Assembly (NCBI GenBank): GCA_001692895.1
Contig: KV748193.1
Coordinates: forward strand, 558,001-622,000
DNA from: Cenococcum geophilum 1.58
Taxonomy: Eukaryota > Ascomycota > Dothideomycetes > Gloniales > Gloniaceae
Direction: 5' to 3'
DNA: 64,000 nucleotides
Below, one piece after another: positions 5,839 through 36,950 of the stretch; position 1 is the stretch's first letter; the number at the start of each line of letters is the position of its first letter. The position numbers were made by a program, and so were the translations under genes. The notes below the pieces were generated by a model. That model was not told the DNA's origin and did not search any database. It was given only the letters and a program-made list of their open reading frames with translations.

Positions 5839-6049
5839 TGTCGGGAATGAGGCAAGTTGCCGTCACGTACGGCAAACTGCCGTCACGTGATGGCAAGTTG
5901 CCATTACGTGTCGCCGCGGCACTAGCGTGGCAAGGAGCCTTAAGTCCCTCGCCCTTCCTTATACCAATTAAAAAATAAGCCTTATTAACTAACATCACTA
6001 TAACCTACTCGAGTAGTCGTTATTGGTAAGTTACCCTATGTAACTAATA
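5839..6049 (+). repeat. 5' LTR of copia A (211 bp)
   Basis: It starts at TGTCGGG and ends TGTAACTAATA (originally CA). It carries three copies of a roughly 20-bp palindromic unit of the form GGCAAGTTGCC-GTCACGT near its start, then the family signature CGCCGCGGCACTAGCG. The following CTAATTAGTGGTT is conserved after the LTR in B, C and E and probably includes the primer-binding site. Confidence 0.9.
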
Positions 6050-6459
6050 CTAATTAGTGGTTAAATATATAGTTAACTATAGAGCAGCTAGGTTTTTAAA
6101 TAGAAGAGATAGTCTTATATAGGGGTGCTATATNCGCTTATATNGAATNGATNCNNGNAATANTNTNCTACNTTANACTTNCNNAANACTAGTAATAGAA
6201 GTGTTACTAAGTACTAGGAGATACTAAGTTGCGTCTATTATATAAAATAATCGCGTTTATAAAGATTTAGTTATACTTTAGGTTAGAAGTGTTACTAAAC
6301 CTAAAGTCCTAAGTTAACGTCTAAAACGCGTTAAATAACGTCTAAAACGCGTTAAATAACGTCTAAAACGCGTTAAACAATATCTTAAATTTCCTACCTC
6401 TTAACAGTAAACCTATAAGATCCTATAAAACCGAAAATCCTACCTATCTTTAACGTATA

Positions 6460-11183: not shown

Positions 11184-11390
11184 TGTTAGGAATAAGGCAA
11201 TTTGCTATCACGTACGGCAAACTGCCGTCACGTGATGGCAAGTTGCCATCACGTGTCGCCGCGGCACTAGCGTGGCGAGGAGCCTTAAGCTCCTCGCCCT
11301 TCCTCATTCCAATTAATAAGCTTTATTAACCAATATTACTATAACCTACTTAAGTAGTTGTTATTAGTAAGTCACCCTATATAACTAATA
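11184..11390 (+). repeat. 5' LTR of copia B
   Basis: TGTTAGGAATAAGG at the start and ATATAACTAATA at the end, with three GGCAA-type palindromic units. It is followed by CTGATTAGTAGTT, the conserved post-LTR motif. A 69-codon antisense frame further inside B (11945-12154) is a shadow of gag. Confidence 0.9.
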
Positions 11391-14600: not shown

Positions 14601-16800
14601 CGGATAGACTTATACCTATATTACTAGTCTTTAGCGCCTACCCTTAAATAACTAACGATTCTCTACTATCTCCCTCTATTATATAATAAGCTAAGGCTAT
14701 TTATAAGGCAATAAAGGAGGTATAACGTCTCTACGCCATATACTAGGTTAACGATGCACTAGGAATAAGAAATGGCCTAAATACCTTAACTACGCTTAAT
14801 CTACCACTTTAGTCTAAGGTACGCGTATAGCGTAAAAAGGGAGGATGGTTAGGCCCATATTAACTTATTATAATTAATGGTTAAACTTATACTATTTAGA
14901 TGCCTTATAAACCTACTTAATTCCATTTAACTATTATTAAGCCTTACTATAAAGATAATAGTTCTAAGCCTTTACAGGATACCATAGAAGATACCTTAGA
15001 GGAGAGCCACAATTAACGTGCTCTAGAAGGCGACTATAATTCTAATATAATTATAGTAGATACGCCGCAACTATAACGCGGTAGAGGTCGCCTAAAGGGA
15101 TTATAAAATCGCTAATATCTTATTAATTTTAAAGAGTAATTTGTTGCCGCTATTAAGAATAGAGTTAAGCTATTAATGGCCTTTATAACAGCTAAGGAGA
15201 AGGCTAACTTTAAACTCATAAAACAGCTCTAAAAGGAAGGTTATATTATAACTCTAGGAGCTCCTTTCTAAGCATCTAATAAGCAGGAGATCAATAATCT
15301 CATTATAAGAGGGGTTTTTAAATTTAAGAAGTATAACCCTACTAAGTTTAATAAAGTTCGTATCTTTAAGTTAAGAATAATTAATAAGATTAAAGGTAAA
15401 GCTACTAACGCCCTATTTAAGAAATTAAGGCTTATTATCTAAGGCTACAACAACAATAGTAAGGAGGTAATTCTTATATAATCTCCCACGATTTAACAAG
15501 CCAGTTAGCGAGTTATTATTACACTAGCTCCCTCCCTAATAAAGAATAAAATAGCAGTCTATTTATAAGATATTACTTAGGCCTATACCTAATTAGAAAC
15601 GCACCTTTAGCGCTTAATATTAGCATACCTTCCAGAGTAAATTCGCCACTAATACTCCGAAGATACGATTATGGTTATACTTAAGCTATTATATAGAATT
15701 GCAGAGGCAGGAACTCACTAGTAGGCTACCTACAGCAAGCACTATAAAGAGAAGCTTTTAATAACTACTTCTATATTCAATCTATGCTTCCTTATTATAA
15801 CTATAGGAACTCTATTTAGAATCGTCAGTATATAAACCAATAATACAATTATCTTAGGAGATGACTAATTCTTAGCTCTTAAAGAAGATAAGCTAGTAAA
15901 GGTAAATCTTATAGTAAAGCTAAAGGAAAAGCTTAATTTGACAATACTATTACTCTTTAATAGATATATCCTCTCCCTAAACGAGGATTCTATTGCTTTA
16001 TGCCAGAAGGGTTAAGGCAAGAAGATTAACGTTATTAACGTTAATTCTCTAAAATAAGGATATGTAGAGTAACGCGCTTATAGAGCTTATATTACTTCTA
16101 TCTATTAACCTAAGGCTTTATTTAATCTCTCTGTTGCCGCTTAATACTAGGAACTAACTAAGGATAATATCCTTACCCTAAATAAGCGTCTCTTTTAGTA
16201 AATAAACCATCTTAACCGGGGACTACTCTATATGCCTATTAATCTTCCCACCGCTAAGCTCTTTATATTTGTTAATAGATCGTTTATAAATAATAAAGAT
16301 TTTAGCTCCTAGNTAGGATATAANATTATTATTNNAAANNAATCTACNNAAGAGAATAACTTTANAATNTANNNNAANNTTATCTATTAGAGCTTAACTA
16401 AGAGTAAGCGTATTACTTAAAGCGTTTTAGCGTTAGAGATATATAGAATAGTTAGCGGAGTTAACATGGTAATTGCAATTAGAACTACCCTAAAGATAAT
16501 TATAGATTGACTCGAACTTCCCGTTATCCCTATAATTGTATATACTAACTTATACTCCCTCTATAAGTGCTTAGTTAAGCTTAGTACTATAAAGGAGAAG
16601 CGCCTTATAATTGATATTATGGCACTTTATTAATCCTACGAACGGCGAGAACTCTTTAAGATTTAATAGATTAACGGTTAAGATAACCTAGTAGATATAA
16701 TAACGAAGGCAAACCCAAATAAGGCTTTAGAAATGTTTATTAATATAAATACTTTACGCGTATAAGTTAAAGGTTAGGTTAAAAGGGAGTAAGAGTATAA
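11690..16800 (+). pseudogene. Element B gag-pol relic
   Basis: The same architecture as A. Gag covers about 11690-13300; the protease region with PDTRAAGVS lies near 13625-13650; the integrase zinc region is near 13990-14130; the integrase core follows with YNIGKNFLSI near 14370-14400. The RT covers about 15250-15860, ending in the site TNNTIILGDD near 15838 (DD to NN). RNase H covers about 16260-16800. Frequent TAA and TAG codons replace Gln and Trp. It retains more C/G than A, which fits with B being younger, since it is nested in A. Confidence 0.82.
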
Positions 16801-17084: not shown

Positions 17085-17291
17085 TGTNNGGAATNAGGNA
17101 ATTTGCCNTNANNTACGGCAAACTGCCGTCACGTGATGGTAAGTTGCTATCACGTATCGCCGCGGCACTAGCGTGGCGAGGAGCCTTAAGCTCCTCGCCC
17201 TTCCTTATTCCAATCAATAAGCTTTATTAACCAACATCACTGTAACCTACTCGAGTAGTCGTTATTGGTGAGTTACCCTATGTGACCAACA
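17085..17291 (+). repeat. 3' LTR of copia B
   Basis: Preceded by the polypurine tract AAAAGAAGAG and TTGCCAG. It ends in an un-mutated TGTGACCAACA. Several bases near its start are N, probably from mis-collapsed repeat reads. Confidence 0.88.
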
Positions 17292-17988: not shown

Positions 17989-18212
17989 GTTACTAAGCTG
18001 GTAAAAATAGGTAGACGTGTATAAGGTATTATGGAGGTGTCCCGTAATACAGAGCCTTAATCCTATTAGTTCTATTAGCTAGCCCTTATTAATAACCACA
18101 AGACCTATTTTACTAGGGGAAGGAATATAAACCCTTAAGAATCTATTACTTAACTATAGCCTATATAGAGAGGAGAGAAAGAAAATATAAAGGTAACAAA
18201 GTTACCTTACCT
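17989..18212 (-). repeat. Continuation of element G leader/5' LTR
   Basis: This follows the A target duplication, so it was contiguous with 5833 before A landed. It contains GGTGTCCCGTAATACA (about 18036-18052), whose reverse complement has the TG start of an LTR, and a TATA-like region on the minus strand. LTR ends cannot be fixed because the other LTR is outside the window. Confidence 0.4.
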
Positions 18213-18213
18213 A

Positions 18214-18319
18214 TATATTAAGCTACTTAGGTAAGATTTATATATATAAAACTATAGCGCTGTAGCTTAGAGGCTATATATAGTATTATATATTATATAA
18301 TATAATATATATAAAAAAA
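18214..18319 (+). mobile_element. Short poly(A)-tailed retroposon copy, same 3' tail as the 26.6-30.3 kb insert
   Basis: About 105 bp aligns with 30157-30278, from TTAAGCTACTTAGG through TAGCTTAGAGGCTA to an A-run, with differences that are mostly C-to-T and G-to-A as expected from RIP. ATATATTAA occurs at 18213-18221 and again after the A-run at 18321-18329, a possible 9-bp TSD, although the local AT-richness weakens that. It looks like a strongly 5'-truncated copy of the same family. Confidence 0.6.
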
Positions 18320-18331
18320 GATATATTAAAT

Positions 18332-18775
18332 AGAGAAGCTAAATCGCTCCTACTTTATAGTTTTTTTACAATAATTAGACATTAAATAAAAGATCAAATA
18401 CAATAGTAAAAATGGTAGGCTTTGGGTATATTTTAGGCTTAAGTATTACTAAAGCTAGGACTATAAGCTCTTAGGCTTTCTATAGAAGATTTATTTAAAT
18501 AAGAAGTAGTATATCTATATAATCTACGGAGAGCCTAATTTATAAGATAAGCGCCTAAACGAGCCTCTAATACTACCTTATCTATATAAGGGATAGAAGC
18601 TTTACTATAATATTTTAAGATGAATAGAACTACTGGTTATTAAAAAGCTCTTTAGCCGGCGGTCCTCAGCCTAAATTTAGGTTTAAAATCCGTCTAAAAA
18701 AATCTCTTATTACTAGATTCAAGCCCTTTAATATCCTTTTATAAGTAAAATAGTTTCCTAAAAGTATTAATATTA
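18332..18775. repeat. Direct repeat, copy 1 (about 445 bp)
   Basis: It starts AGAGAAGCTAAATCGCTCC and ends AAGTATTAATATTA. It is collinear with copy 2 just downstream but lacks a roughly 50-bp block near 18620. It is more heavily RIP-mutated than copy 2. Neither strand gives a protein I recognise. The copies could be two LTRs without an interior, or a local tandem duplication. Confidence 0.75.
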
Positions 18776-26230: not shown

Positions 26231-26575
26231 ACACAAAAATTTTGAAGGAGCTCTTGCTGCACCCGGCCCAAAAAGACTAAAACCAACCAAAAGAACCCTG
26301 CAAAACACCCAGAGAATCCCCCTGAGATGCATACATCATAGGGGAGGCACACGTCGAACGACGGTGGTACGCACTCGCGCGCGACCGCCGGTACCACGCC
26401 CAGCAATGGCCCTCCACAACAAAGACGGGCGAATACCACACCACAAAGCGGAAATACCTTTATTAAAAAGGCATTTAATAAAATATAAAGCCTATTAGAT
26501 GTATCTAGTACCTAGAATTATAGGGGAGTAACTATTAGCTATAACGATTTAATATAGCTAGTAGAATGGCTCCGC
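26231..26575 (+). pseudogene. LINE ORF1, piece 1
   Basis: A plus-strand frame with few stops reads a Pro/Thr/Asn-rich segment, then GNTFIKKAFNKI and YNDLIQLVEWLR at the end. EWLR recurs at 30283 on the other side of the poly(A)-tailed insert because GAATGGCTCCGC is its target duplication, and the frame then continues. Bases 26231-26450 keep normal CpA content, while 26455-26575 is RIP-mutated. The LINE may be 5'-truncated, as no clear start codon is seen. Confidence 0.65.
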
Positions 26576-26613
26576 CCGCGAAGCCCTACTGCAGCCCGCG
26601 AAGCCCTACTGCA
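26575..26613. repeat. 19-bp tandem duplication at the insert's 5' end
   Basis: CCCGCGAAGCCCTACTGCA occurs twice, separated by one G, at the very start of the poly(A)-tailed insert. Confidence 0.85.
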
Positions 26614-27027
26614 CGCGTCCACGTCGCCGCGGGTGGAAACATCATTAGGAAATTGTTCCTTATGATGGCTAAGTGCAGAGGCGATGGTAGGGAGCCGTCG
26701 CAGCGCATGCAGCGCGCTGTCGTCGCGCTGTGGTGTTGAGCCCGCGACGCGTACGAAGCATCNNACAAAGCATCGCCCTCAACAACACCAGGAGCCTCAC
26801 TGCCTCCGCTTGAGGCTCCTGTTCTACCACCTAGGGAGGCCTATCAAGGGAAACTGGGATACGAAAACCACCCGATGTACGACTACCTGGCTTGCAGCCA
26901 GGCCCGAAACTGGCCTTATCCAGCCAGTCGACGTGGACGCGCCCTAGGCGTACAACAGGACACCCTTGGGCTTGCACTAGCTCTGAGATCGCAAAGGGAA
27001 AGCGGCGAGGGCGTAGGGAACCTCTTT

Positions 27028-27145
27028 TTATAAGAACTTGTTAAGGTTAACGCGTCGCAGGTACCTCGTACGAAACTTGTTAAGGCCCCAAGGCCACCGC
27101 GAAGAACTTGTTAAGGCCCTGCCTAAAGAACTCGTTAAGGCCCCT
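27028..27145 (+). repeat. Four dispersed copies of GAACTTGTTAAGG
   Basis: Copies at about 27029, 27076, 27104 and 27128 (variants AAACTTGTTAAGGCC and GAACTCGTTAAGGCC), spaced 24-48 bp. No function is assigned. Confidence 0.7.
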
Positions 27146-27177
27146 CTACGAGGGCCTATCTGGTATCCGGTACACCC

Positions 27178-27386
27178 AGGTGACTCAGAAGAGGGTCTTA
27201 ATAGGCGTGGTGCGCGCGACCTGGACGACAGCGACGCGACAGCGACGCGACGGCGACAGACGGCTCAACGAGGGAAACACGGGCAAAGCTCTAGGCAGCG
27301 GAAACACAGGCCAGCTTCGACGGCCCCATGGCGTTTGACTAGGTGACTCACAGGAGGGTCTTAATAGGCGTGGTGCACGCAACCTG
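27178..27386 (+). repeat. Direct repeat pair of about 46 bp
   Basis: AGGTGACTCA..AGAGGGTCTTAATAGGCGTGGTGC occurs at 27178-27223 and 27341-27386 with few differences, bracketing a CGACG-rich stretch at about 27223-27260. A hairpin-forming CTAACTAC/GTAGTTAG pair follows further on, at about 27669-27701. Confidence 0.75.
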
Positions 27387-28135
27387 ACGCATATACATAT
27401 GGGGGAGGCTCTAAGGAAACATAGGCCAGTCGGACGAGGACTCCGACCAGTTTAGAGAACACAGGCCAGCTTATAAAAAGGGGGGACATAAGCTTGGTTA
27501 GTAGGAGATGACGGGGAGCAGGTTGCCTGGCACGCAGCGACCTTGGTCATAATAGCCCCCTCCTGCAAGACACCGGTCTGGCCTGTCATCCTAGAGTGAG
27601 ACCATCTTAACAGGCAACGCGAAAACGGGAACTTGGCACAGTATTAATAGGTGTGTTGCGCCCCTAAATACTAACTACTAGCCCTCCGGCGGGGCGTAGT
27701 GCGTAGTTAGCCCACTTGCTGGCTTCTTAGGGACACCTTCACCCCTCTTAGCTGGGCTCTGAGACCCCTAAGTGCACCTGGTAGGCAGGTAGGATGTATT
27801 ACGTCCTGGCCGGAGAAGACTGACCTACGTGCCTCACAAGTAACGGACATGCGAGAGAACGGATGCGCGTTGTCGGTACATCAATAGACGGAATCCGTTC
27901 GCCTAGAACGGGCCACGCCGGTGAGAATATTGCTTAAGGAGCAAAGGAGATGTTCACCGCAGGCGGGAGAGGTTTTTGGCGGGCGCCTTAACCGTAGAAG
28001 GTGGTGTGAGGTGTCACAAGAGATGTTGACGAAGCCACTGGGAAAACTGGGGTAGGGCCTGGATAAGCGCGGGCATGTCGACAGATCTACTGTATTATTG
28101 CACTACCTAGATATTAACTTTATAATAACTACCTG
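27387..28135. other. Interior of the poly(A)-tailed insert, no gene seen
   Basis: GC-balanced sequence with ACAGGCCAGCTT repeats near 27310 and 27458. No open frame with a recognisable domain, no tRNA or rRNA similarity that I can identify. Confidence 0.5.
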
Positions 28136-28262
28136 CCTCCCGTCAGACGTCTCCCCTTTGCTCCTCCGTCCGTCGCTCCCCTTTGCCTCCGTCCTGTTCG
28201 CCTCCCCTTTGCTCCTCCGTCCGTCGACCTCCCTTTTGCTCCCCGTCCGTCCGTCGCAAGGG
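28136..28262. repeat. Pyrimidine-rich minisatellite
   Basis: Tandem degenerate copies of CTCCCCTTTGCTCCTCCGTC-type sequence, with CCGTCCGTCG between units. Open frames over it are repeat artefacts. Confidence 0.75.
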
Positions 28263-28411
28263 GCCGCCGTTTATACCCCCTAAAGACACGTCCGCACATC
28301 GGACCCCTTGCTACCACAATCAACTATTCCGTCCACACCGGTCTGCCACAGAGGCAACGAGTACCTCCACTACCTCATTCTCCGCTGGCACGACCTCCCC
28401 TAGCGAAAACG

Positions 28412-28800
28412 CAGTCTGTCCGCTGGGCAGACGACCTCCTCTACAAACCGTCTGCCGTAGGCAGACGACCTCCTCTCCAACCCGTCTGCCGCAGGCAGAC
28501 TACCTTGCTCTACTACCCGCTGCCGGCAGGGTAGCCGACCTACTACAACAGTCTGCCAGCATAGGGAGACGACCTCCTGTACAACCCTCTGCGGTTGTCA
28601 TACCTGACCCTCCTCTACAACCCGTACTGCCGCAGGCAAGACGACGTCCACTCACGACCCGTCTGCTGCACCACACGCACCACAACGCCGATTCCACTGC
28701 ATAGCAGACGCAGGTCCCCACTAGCAACCTCTGCTGCAGTGCAGATAGACCGATCCTCTAACACAGCTGCTACAGGCAGACGAGCTCCTGTTAAACCAGT
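28412..28800. repeat. Minisatellite block 1, unit about 34-36 bp
   Basis: Degenerate units built of GGCAGACGACCTCCTCTACA followed by ACCCGTCTGCCGCA. Each unit junction makes a palindrome, GTCTGCCGCAGGCAGAC. About eight to ten units, some scrambled. Confidence 0.8.
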
Positions 28801-28834
28801 CTGAGGCCAGGGGGCGGGGACGACCGTCTACTCG

Positions 28835-29101
28835 CAACCGCGGTCTCACCGGCTGTCGCGCTATAGGTAAATTAAACTATAGAGAACCCGGCAGGCCGAC
28901 CGCAGGCTCGCTGCTGGCGTAACCGCAGACACGCAGCTGCTAGTTACCTATAAGTAGCGGGGATAGGGGCAGTTGCCGTGCCGGCCCTGGGTTCCTTTCA
29001 TGCAGCTTAATATATTAAGTGTATACTGGCGAATTCGGGCTTCTCCTGTGAGCATACACGACAGACCTCGTGATCTTTCACTATGGGATGGGTTTAAGTG
29101 T
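28835..29101. repeat. Inter-block cassette, copy 1
   Basis: Starts near CGCGCTATAGG and ends near CTATGGGATGGGTTTAAGTG. It aligns collinearly with 29480-29728 (shared GCGCTATAGGTA, GGGGATAGGGG, GGCGAATT and CCTCGTGA blocks), although the two have diverged. Confidence 0.65.
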
Positions 29102-29199
29102 CGACGATCACCGTTACTGACCCTGACACTCGGGAGACAGTTACGATTTTTTACATCTACAACCGTCTCATTGCGCGCCCGCATGGGCAAGACAGAGGC

Positions 29200-29480
29200 T
29201 CTTCCTCTACCACCCGTCTGAGCCGGAGCACTCTAGTAGCAGACGTACCTCCTCTCATCAAGCCCGTGCTGGCGCGCAGGCCAGACGACCTCCACCTACA
29301 ACACCGTCTGCTGCAGGGCCAGACGACCTCCAACTACAACGCGTCCTGCTGCATGGCAGACGACCTCCACATACAACCCGTCTGCTGCAGGGCAGACGAC
29401 CTCCTCTAACAACAGTCTGCTGCAGGGCAGACGACCTCCTCTAATAACCAGTCTGCTGCAGAGCAGACGACCTCTACTTG
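29200..29480. repeat. Minisatellite block 2, unit about 35 bp
   Basis: Cleaner copies of the same unit (GGGCAGACGACCTCCTCTAA and CAACAGTCTGCTGCA), about seven units, each junction GTCTGCTGCAGGGCAGAC. Differences between adjacent units are mostly in the linker. Confidence 0.85.
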
Positions 29481-29728
29481 CAACCGGTCACGGGTGTTCG
29501 CGCTATAGGTATTAACTATAGAGGGAACCGCAGGCGTACCGCAGGCGCACCACGCAGGGCGTACCGCAGACGATGCACTGCTAGGGTAGCTATAGTAGGG
29601 GATAGGGGAAGGGGGCGGGCCCCGTGTTACTTTAGCACTGTTAAATATAAGGTGTCATAGGCGAATTTGGTGTATACCCTATACAAGACAACCTCGTGAA
29701 AATTTCCTATGGGAGTGGGTTTATGTAA
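29480..29728. repeat. Inter-block cassette, copy 2
   Basis: Second copy of the 28835-29101 cassette. Together with blocks 1 and 2 it forms a higher-order [minisatellite + cassette] x 2 array. From 29729 to 30156 I see no further feature. Confidence 0.65.
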
Positions 29729-30202
29729 CGAGGTTCGCCTTATTATAAAATACCCGTTTTCTAGAGCGTAAATCTAGGATTAGTAGGTTACTTTTGGGGA
29801 GAGTACCTACTAATTACTAATTTCCCTACCCATTTCTTTAGCAAGGAAAGGAATAGGTGTACAGAATTAAACAGTCGTATGGGGTAATTGGGTAGCTACT
29901 TTCAAGCTAGTAAGCTATATGGTTTCTCTTATTCTTATATGCAAAACTACGTTAAAAATCTACCTTTTTAGAGCGCTTTTTTCTACTCTAGGAACGGCAG
30001 AATACGGCAGAAATAGATAAAAGAGCCAGGATTTTCGTGTGATTTTCTTGGTGTTAAACTGGACCATAGTAAGCAAAAATATCAGGAACAAACACCAATA
30101 GGCTAGGACTCCCCTAGTATTTAAAAACGGGCCGGAGTGTCCACTTAGCTACTAGTACATGTTAAGCTGCCTAGGAAGGATTCATGTATATTAGAACTAT
30201 AG

Positions 30203-30229
30203 GCGCATTAGCCTAGAGGCTGCATGCGC
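30203..30229 (+). other. Stem-loop just before the poly(A) tail
   Basis: GCGCAT and AGCCT pair with AGGCT and ATGCGC around a 2-base loop. The region recurs, with RIP-type changes, in the 18214-18319 copy. Its position 30-50 bp before the A-run resembles 3' structures recognised by LINE reverse transcriptases. TAGCCTAGAGG also resembles a pol III box A, but no box B follows. Confidence 0.5.
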
Positions 30230-30291
30230 AGTATTGTACGTAGTATAATACAATGGATATAAAAAAAAAAAAAAAAAAAGAATGGCTCCGC

Positions 30292-30876
30292 TAGTCTAGT
30301 AAACCTTAGGCGCCCCTTTAATAAACTCTTAATTAAATCCTCTAATAGCTAAGTAAAATTAAAAATAAATAAAATCCCTTTTTACTAGCGAACTGCACCT
30401 AGGCCGCTATAGCTATACTTCTATAGCATAGGGAACTTACCCCCCTTAAAATAATAACCGAGTATATAATTATAATATAACTAAATATAGAAAAAGTAAA
30501 GGGGCTTAGGGGATAATTAGAAATAGAAGTCCTTATAAAAATCTATAAAGAGGTTTATAACGCTATTATAGTCTAATACCTTAGGAGTGGAGATATTAGA
30601 GTTACCCTAAAAGACTAATAGGTAAAGTAATAAGCTATAAGGGTAGGGGATAGGCTAGGAGAACGTATTAGTATAAAAGTACTCTATAAGGATTACTTAG
30701 TTAAAGTTTTAGCAGTTCCTATAAGCCTTAGGGTAGAAAAGGAACACTAGGCGAATAATATAGCAATTATATAGAAAATAGTAAGATAAATAGAACGCCT
30801 TATACTAGGACTTAAGATCACCTAAATCTAATAGCTTTAATAGGAAAATACAAACTAAGTAAATAATAAGAGTAAT
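30292..30876 (+). pseudogene. LINE ORF1, piece 2
   Basis: This reads LRSGDIRVTLKDQQVKQQA (about 30585-30640), then DYLVKVLAVPISLRVEKEH and a further segment with ERLILGLKIT. The pattern fits the conserved central part of ORF1 proteins of fungal Tad-type LINEs. It stops at the GTAAT duplication of copia C. Confidence 0.75.
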
Positions 30877-31091
30877 TGTTGGGAATAAAGGCAAATGGTC
30901 ACCATATAAGGCATATTGCCGTCATGTATAGCAAGTTGCCGTTACGTGCGGCAAGTTGCCATTATGTGTTGCCGCGGCACTAGCGTGGCGAGGAGCCTTA
31001 AGCTCCTTGCCCTCCCTTATAAAGATATATAGAACAATTATTATACTATCTATAAACCGTAGCTATATAATATTACCTTATATAACCAACA
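30877..31091 (+). repeat. 5' LTR of copia C
   Basis: TGTTGGGAATAAAGGCAAATGG to TATATAACCAACA. A variant of the family LTR with GGCATATTGCC, AGCAAGTTGCC and GGCAAGTTGCC palindromic units. Confidence 0.92.
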
Positions 31092-36735: not shown

Positions 36736-36950
36736 TATTGGGAATAAAGGCAAATGGTCACTATATAAGGCATATTGCCGTCACGTATAGCAAGTTGCCG
36801 TTACGTGCGGCAAGTTGCTATTACGTGTCGCCGCGGCACTAGCGTAGCGAGGAGCCTTAAGCTCCTTGCCCTCCCTTATAAAGATATATAAAATAATCAT
36901 TATACTATCTACGAATTGTAGCTATATAATATTACCTTATATAACTAATA
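36736..36950 (+). repeat. 3' LTR of copia C
   Basis: Begins TATTGGGAATAAAGG, the TG having become TA, and ends ATATAACTAATA. Confidence 0.92.

Follow-up and report, generated by a model that had tools for sequence, protein, structure and literature searches.

The window analysed here is a stretch of 64,000 nucleotides from Cenococcum geophilum 1.58 (assembly GCA_001692895.1, contig KV748193.1, positions 558,001 to 622,000), in which an insert lies between two copies of a 13-bp target-site duplication, AGAATGGCTCCGC, at 26563..26575 and 30279..30291; all features given below are on the plus strand. Read 5' to 3', the insert comprises a non-coding RNA copy at 26594..28136 (the module), a minisatellite-rich part at 28137..30260 (the body), and a poly(A) tail of 19 A at 30261..30279, the last A of which possibly belongs to the target duplication. 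The final GC of the left duplication copy is equally assignable to the element. As a query for empty sites, the two flanks were joined into 600 bases with the 13-bp repeat kept once, and 40 of 802 first-look candidates were scored; all 40 genomic relatives are empty at the insertion site, their matches crossing the join with 88-91% identity, from positions 1-5 to positions 596-600 of the 600 bases. Because all 40 scored places are paralogous empty sites, the ends of the insert and its target duplication are exact. The insertion at this site is genuine, with the 13-bp duplication proposed in the initial annotation borne out. The start assigned there, 26576, requires correction: the 5' end of the element is G26594, and 26574..26593 is a stutter in which the 20 bases that open the element (GCCCGCGAAGCCCTACTGCA) stand once more, detected by tandem repeat finder and in a comparison of 5' flanks, and absent before 31 other distinct 5' ends.

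Several further properties had been ascribed to this segment. Its GC richness holds (GC fraction 0.557 in the module and 0.528 in the body), as does its non-coding character; among 29 other module copies, the longest module frame is disrupted in 28 by a gap whose length is not divisible by 3, and in 21 by an in-frame stop ahead of the frame's own stop, and a coding insert was rejected since this frame is not conserved. The insert has a (CA+TG)/(AC+GT) index of 0.84-0.90. Its surroundings had been called RIP-mutated, which is correct for the right side (0.31-0.44, as also in window 1-20 kb) but not for the left flank (0.88); the index is 0.72 at 20-22 kb and 1.25 at 22-26 kb, and by the TA/AT index the insert cannot be told apart from mutated DNA. 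A LINE ORF1 frame was said to stop and restart at the insert; however, the joined flanks hold no open frame longer than 24 aa across the join, and none of six flank translations, made by reading through stops, has a Pfam match that would support a flanking ORF1. The suggestion of a single-copy insert is contradicted by 83 genomic matches to the insert and 269 to the core of the predicted ribozyme at its 5' end, and the genome search for further copies that had been recommended found other chimeras with target duplications of their own. The insert is a chimera of two retroposed RNAs, neither a single element nor single-copy.

By copy comparison, the module begins with GCCCGCG and ends in ...ATAACTACCTGC. 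Among the best 40 of 396 candidates retrieved with its first 385 bases, all 39 matches outside the window begin at query positions 9-20. These starts fall on the first ribozyme base, give or take chance extension. GCCCGCG forms the 5' end of 31 of 32 distinct copies, which were picked for reaching that end. At the 3' side, 33 copies were examined, two of which are loci that stop short of the terminal motif; 26 of the 31 testable copies end in ...AACTACCT, while four break off early (L042 at 506, L065 at 791, L056 at 1459, and L067 38 nt short) and the remaining one, L059, is split by another insert. What follows the motif in these 26 is varied: the body in six, an RT/RNase H LINE in five (at four points), an ORF1-3'UTR derivative in two (one by coordinates only), another module in two (L004 and L048), a RIP-mutated repeat without a name in two (at two points), another multicopy repeat in one, and unassigned sequence in eight. 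The tail of L002 is multicopy, with matches ending near 1025, which is the limit of the query and not of the repeat. In L003 and L005 the module adjoins a repeat that is LINE-like by eye; with stops read through, that of L003 had no Pfam match, and the repeat was left unnamed.

Module copies measure 1.44-1.79 kb. Target duplications of 11-13 bp flank all seven other chimeras for which the two ends are available, and that of L002 is 14 bp. For L081, a module-LINE chimera, the duplicated motif was predicted from the 3' flank and found at the predicted place; it adjoins a module start once in 177 Mb. There are also 5'-truncated copies (L036 and L074), and the position of the module-body join differs between chimeras. 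Copies L001-L005 form a group with a common internal deletion (support 1.000), fused to four partner kinds, while other copies are marked by a second common gap; because of these two markers, more than one source lineage of the module can be recognised. The fold of the module was compared with those of 12 shuffles for each of three copies, and was the more stable in all three (z of -5.6, -2.3, and -3.4). We infer that the module terminates, on its 3' side, at a genuine end of the RNA.

The first base of the module is also the first base of a predicted HDV-like double-pseudoknot ribozyme (26594..26683), for which the evidence comes from Rfam, pair counts, descriptor scans, and a core pattern; the ribozyme-like fold starts exactly at the module 5' end. 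Its predicted helices are P1 (26594-26600/26628-26634), P2 (26606-26614/26673-26681), P3 (26615-26617/26625-26627), P1.1 (26619-26620/26635-26636), and P4 (26640-26667), with C26669 in J4/2 as candidate catalytic residue. The J4/2 C, C76 of alignment A1, is invariant in 20 of 20 sequences, and its catalytic role is one that we assign by analogy. Cleavage is predicted between 26593 and 26594, and the RNA may cleave itself there in vivo. At this spot RF02682 scores 32.7 bits (E 0.0021; gathering cut-off 44) and RF00094 31.9 bits (E 0.067; gathering cut-off 50), both below cut-off, and the ribozyme is not among the matches listed by a whole-window Rfam scan; HDV-class families were found at the module start in four of six other copies, with no HDV match in two. 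Across 19 distinct sequences, pairing is 100% in P1, P3, and P1.1, 99.3% in P2, and 90.4% in P4, i.e., 96.4% of cells paired overall versus 35-58% when the pattern is slid. Covariation support for the fold is thin, with one compensatory change in these sequences and an observed score reached by 82 of 500 shuffles. A structure descriptor, composed after inspection of the sequence, has its match at base 1 in 30 of 32 distinct copies. L054, L055, and L071 fail it; elsewhere in 298 kb of loci it finds only one further module start, and in 6 Mb of Markov sequence nothing. The 269 core matches were obtained with up to 3 mismatches (the reversed pattern gave none), and all 100 of those listed are exact. 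A control 43-mer within the module gave 130 matches, with 30 exact, an exact count lowered because the 43-mer represents the copy in the window rather than the majority. Mean pairwise identity is 99.4% over the first 46 alignment columns and 74-96% in 100-column blocks.

The body is a copy of a separate non-coding, non-autonomous retroposon, as indicated by copies in which a target duplication stands directly before the body and by the variable module-body join. Its minisatellites, already noted in the earlier description and recovered here by tandem repeat finder, have units of 26-27 bp near the body 5' end (28140..28257), 34 bp (28390..28670), and 36 bp (and 71 bp; 29276..29489). A duplication stands directly before the 5'-most match in 21 of 29 body loci; 11 of these 21 start at or within 2 nt of GTCCGTCGCC, and one, L036, is a 5'-truncated chimera. 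The last ~118 bp of the body (30143..30260) match, at ~89-94% identity, the 3' UTR tail of a LINE of the same genome that encodes reverse transcriptase and RNase H (RVT_1, E 1.6e-12; RNase_H, E 3.2e-12) and is itself present in 5'-truncated copies. By this tail held in common with the LINE, the body would be a LINE-dependent, SINE-like non-autonomous retroposon. Rfam shows no Pol III head (tRNA, 7SL, or 5S) up to E 1 in 26300-30600; a SINE in the strict sense was rejected for lack of such a head match and for a length of ~2.1 kb.

Taken as a whole, the insert is in our judgement very probably a bipartite chimeric retroposon that arose in one LINE-driven insertion with a template jump from body to module. 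The target duplication, the A tail, and the LINE 3' tail support the view that LINE-type machinery reverse-transcribed polyadenylated non-coding RNA-derived sequence here; the initial annotation had proposed as much, although its assumption of one RNA is not supported. As we picture the order of events, the LINE machinery would nick the target and prime on the poly(A) of the body RNA, recognised via its LINE-like 3' tail. Nearly the whole body would be copied before the reverse transcriptase jumps, taking up the module RNA at its 3' end and copying it up to a 5' end made by the self-cleaving HDV-like ribozyme, at which the cDNA would be joined to yield the 13-bp duplication. Module RNA would thus serve as a jump acceptor for several partners, and it is because of this that copies would have a common 5' end, a mostly common module 3' end, and differing downstream parts. 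A bolder and tentative extension, which we hold to be possible though not probable, is that the module is a 'template-jump parasite', spreading only as acceptor of LINE template jumps, with 3'-end recognition given up and the HDV-like ribozyme releasing its 5' end from read-through transcripts; WEIRD (see below) and similar RNAs of filamentous fungi would be further members. This would account for the full-length 5' ends and missing source gene of WEIRD-like RNAs, and replication by jumps only would amount to non-autonomous retrotransposition independent of LINE 3'-end mimicry.

Could the module instead be the 5' UTR of a ribozyme-bearing LINE, with the insert being that LINE minus its coding part? 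The R2 SIDEs and R2/R1 hybrid SIDEs offer a precedent, in that a ribozyme on the 5' side is linked to a 3' end according to the available text of PMC3414825, and a LINE starting with the module would be compatible with our partner LINE sequence, which was read to a point short of its 5' end. We nonetheless regard this as unlikely, given that a single recurrent module end has no fewer than five kinds of partner, joined at many points, a second module included. In the 9 kb upstream of 40 LINE copies with an RT region, a known module start occurs in one case only, where it is part of a module-body insert of its own, although this is a weak test in that 120 module starts were used and the LINE copies are mostly 5'-truncated.

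Far less probable still is that the module represents, in linear form, a viroid- or HDV-like circular RNA captured by LINEs, both of its ends stemming from the same ribozyme cut. A ribozyme at one end, a recurrent other end, a non-coding length of 1.44-1.79 kb, and no recognised solo copy would suit such an RNA; however, circular folds of three copies are branched and not rod-like (29, 30, and 38 hairpins versus shuffle means of 29, 31, and 34), 177 Mb contain no exact head-to-tail module junction, and descriptor scans detect no minus-strand ribozyme. A spliced leader, trans-spliced onto LINE transcripts ahead of reverse transcription, would likewise fit a constant 5' part with varied 3' parts, but at the four LINE junctions whose donor could be read the LINE side shows no AG directly before the join, and the module-to-module joins of L004 and L048 also speak against it, such that we give this explanation next to no credence.

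The template-jump chimera that we favour is of a known kind, the MINE type, first described, reportedly, by Fudal in 2005. The insert had been said to match no fungal SINE or LINE, which is correct for the insert as a whole but overlooks these chimeras, which in Magnaporthe grisea/oryzae combine WEIRD, a highly expressed non-coding RNA of 1113 nt without solo copies, with the MGL LINE or with Mg-SINE (PMC2104539). As far as the available text of that source describes them, the likenesses are (i) a constant full-length non-coding RNA on the 5' side, (ii) a 5'-truncated LINE or LINE-tailed non-autonomous element on the 3' side, with varying join points here, (iii) target duplications of 10-20 bp, against 13 bp in the window and the 11-13 bp given above, and (iv) double jumps (PMC2104539). 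The differences are the several partner families, the larger number of copies, and the predicted HDV-like 5' ribozyme, which appears to be new for such chimeras: the word 'ribozyme' does not occur in the available text of PMC2104539, and no paper in the literature searched, in which subscription journals are thinly covered, links an HDV-like ribozyme to MINE- or WEIRD-type chimeras. WEIRD as 5' partner of fungal LINE chimeras was left unexplained in 2007 (PMC2104539, available text), and a predicted ribozyme exactly at the 5' end offers a concrete explanation, open to testing, of why the start is so precise; the 269 core matches, moreover, constitute a large natural record of in vivo template jumping by LINE enzymes. 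Two published WEIRD primers, the only ones compared, differ from the module at 6-9 of 20 positions, a fit not above that of shuffled sequence (7-9). In a small sample of four LINE donors that could be read, none has the strict GCC*A/U switch motif of MINE. The L051 donor, GGTC|T, resembles switch-motif variants tabulated in PMC2104539.

In vivo, the R2 enzyme jumps to snU12 and tRNA, and the R2 and R2/R1 hybrid SIDEs of Drosophila, as described in the available portion of PMC3414825, resemble our insert in being non-coding and in combining a 5' HDV-like ribozyme with another LINE's 3' end. In contrast to SIDEs, which lie in rDNA with the ribozyme directly joined to one 3' end (PMC3414825), the C. 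geophilum chimeras have a 1.5-kb module, many partners, and dispersed sites. Fungal HDV ribozyme variants, with 230 representatives in 26 species, have the HDV-class fold in common with ours, and their extra C between P2 and P3 has a counterpart in C21 of alignment A1; 'transpos' does not occur in the main text of that source, so far as available (PMC5640933). They differ in the cleavage-site pair, which is G-U here and not C-G, and no loop E was recognised by eye in our P4.

The Pr77 ribozyme of trypanosomatids has a 5' position and is also found in NARTc. In the L1Tc/SIDER case, too, an HDV-like ribozyme occurs in a LINE and related elements, to the extent covered by the available text of PMC4035085. 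There the ribozyme is on the LINE itself, whereas here it is seen only on the module, the LINE sequence having been read short of the LINE 5' end. In the human U6-L1 chimeric retrogenes the acceptor is U6 snRNA, and they are not known to carry a ribozyme. These retrogenes resemble the present chimeras in the jump from a truncated LINE RNA onto a second, abundant RNA (PMC2104539, available text).

The insert at 26563-30291 has the structure of a MINE-type chimera, here from a fungus other than Magnaporthe, with a 5' module (26594-28136) joined to a minisatellite-rich body (28137-30260); its Magnaporthe counterpart is the WEIRD-MgSINE chimera (PMC2104539). In the window sequence, the 13-bp repeat AGAATGGCTCCGC stands at 26563-26575 and again at 30279-30291, with a run of 19 A residues (30261-30279) at the 3' side of the insert. 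For an empty-site query, 300 bases per flank were joined with the 13-bp repeat kept once, and these 600 bases were searched against the genome from which the window comes (177.2 Mb in 162 contigs). In 40 of 40 scored places (of 802 first-look candidates) the match spans the join, starting at query base 1-5 and ending at 596-600 of 600, with 88-91% identity; the insertion thus lies in a repeat that is multicopy in its own right. Unoccupied copies of that repeat bear out both insert ends, upholding the 13-bp target duplication proposed in the initial annotation. The assignment of the flank to a LINE ORF1 was not confirmed, and the RIP-mutated surroundings described there are clear on the right side only. 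That the insert might be single-copy is refuted by at least 83 matches in its own genome, a count that comes from the 40 candidates scored out of 1770.

Copies of the insert share a defined 5' end. When the first 385 bases were searched, all 39 non-window matches among the best 40 (of 396 candidates) began at query positions 9-20, which places their start at G26594, where the second unit of a tandem 20-mer begins, and GCCCGCG was read in 31 of 32 distinct copies chosen for reaching the 5' end; 5'-truncated copies are also present (loci L036 and L074). Most of 35 listed 3' ends, chosen for reaching the end, are followed by an A-rich tail, with a TA run in its place at L035. Target duplications measure 11-13 bp in all seven other chimeras for which both ends were available, and 14 bp in the L002 chimera. 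The latter has no poly(A) at its end, before the duplication.

At this 5' end lies a predicted ribozyme. In sensitive mode, Rfam placed two HDV-class families at 26592-26685, its sole matches across 26300-30600 up to E 1. The same spot was matched in four of six other copies by RF00094, RF02682 or RF01788 (the last likewise an HDV-like family), with no Rfam match in the other two; all scores, including those in the window, lie below the gathering cut-offs, and a whole-window Rfam scan did not list the site. A hand-built fold contains P1, P3, P1.1, P2 and P4, with the G-U pair of P1 at the predicted cut, and pairs 96.4% of cells versus 35-58% when slid; its one compensatory change, in P4, was equalled by 82 of 500 shuffles. 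A double-pseudoknot descriptor, composed with the sequence already known, (i) found 26594 alone in the window, (ii) matched exactly at the start in 30 of 32 distinct copies (failing in L054 and L055), (iii) matched one of two further module starts (L070, not L071), (iv) hit module starts exclusively in 298 kb of loci, and (v) gave no match in Markov sequence totalling 6 Mb. For the 43-base core, the genome contains 269 matches with ≤3 mismatches (reversed pattern, 0), and 100 of the 100 matches listed are exact, compared with 130 matches, 30 exact, for a control 43-mer picked inside the window's module, a control understated by being drawn from one copy and not the majority. Pairwise identity among 21 modules is 99.4% over the first 46 columns versus 74-96% in 100-column blocks. 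Since copies begin at the ribozyme's first base, the 5' end of inserted copies coincides with the predicted cleavage site, and cleavage at the module 5' end is predicted from this fold. HDV ribozymes are already known in fungi (PMC5640933) and on animal (PMC3414825) and trypanosomatid (PMC4035085) LINEs; the single parts are thus not new, and the novelty lies in their combination. Relative to the papers compared, the new features are the predicted ribozyme heading the element, the presence of several partner families and the number of copies.

While 26594-28136 recurs in all copies examined, the sequence downstream differs between them. The module end was surveyed in 33 copies (the 32 reaching the 5' end plus L081), in two of which (L044, L068) the locus stops short of it. 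In 26 of the other 31, the module ends at ...AACTACCT; one module (L059) is interrupted by another insert, and four (L042, L056, L065, L067) break off elsewhere, before the usual 3' end, which may reflect subsequent damage, template jumps onto fragmented module RNA, or an error in the model. Partners of the 26 fixed-end modules are the minisatellite body (6), a LINE (5; L043, L047, L051, L062, L081), an ORF1-3'UTR derivative (2; L050, and L045 by coordinates), another module (2; L004, L048), a RIP-mutated repeat without a name (2; L003, L005, the former given none by Pfam), a different multicopy repeat (1; L002), and sequence without class assignment (8). The L001-L005 modules have a large internal gap in common and group together with support, yet their partners are of four kinds.

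Template jumps yield one recurrent 3' end with many partners, and jumps of a LINE enzyme onto module RNA would fit this pattern; splicing and internal deletion fit it less well. Such jumps are reported for R2 onto other RNAs (snU12, tRNA; PMC3414825) and inferred for MGL (PMC2104539). The fusion of a truncated module to a complete one in L004 and L048 resembles the product of a double jump. L051 and L062 have the same LINE junction point and are sister modules in different flanks, which suggests that a completed chimera can be mobilised again as a whole; the pattern would equally follow from a hot spot for jumps. For the module-LINE chimera L081, the duplication was predicted from its 3' flank alone, and the predicted motif directly precedes a module start once in the genome, at L081 itself.

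The body is a retroposon in its own right. A target duplication directly precedes the 5'-most match in 21 of 29 body loci, 11 of these starting at or ≤2 nt from GTCCGTCGCC; among the remaining eight are two known chimeras for which the locus does not extend to the 5' side. The final ~118 bp of the body are shared with the 3' UTR of a LINE with RVT_1 and RNase_H domains, whose copies show a typical series of 5' truncations. As the body has this LINE's 3' tail, the two stand to each other as Mg-SINE and MGL do in Magnaporthe. The LINE-type tail recurs as a diverged copy (75-77%) at 18212-18317, overlapped by a TA-rich stretch (18275-18332). In L059 (1-565), an ORF1 end judged zinc-knuckle-like by eye passes straight into the LINE 3' UTR and tail, with ORF2 missing; searching with 260 bp of this sequence gave 603 first-look candidates, and it may represent an ORF1-only LINE derivative.

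Elsewhere in the window, assembly N occur singly or in short runs at 26763-26764 and scattered at 6134-6187, 16313-16379, 17088-17113, 35093 and 51478. A dispersed 20-21-bp unit like GGCAAGTTGCCGTCACGTGAC forms short tandem arrays at 5851-5910, 11196-11255, 36775-36827 and, just downstream of the insert, 30916-30960.
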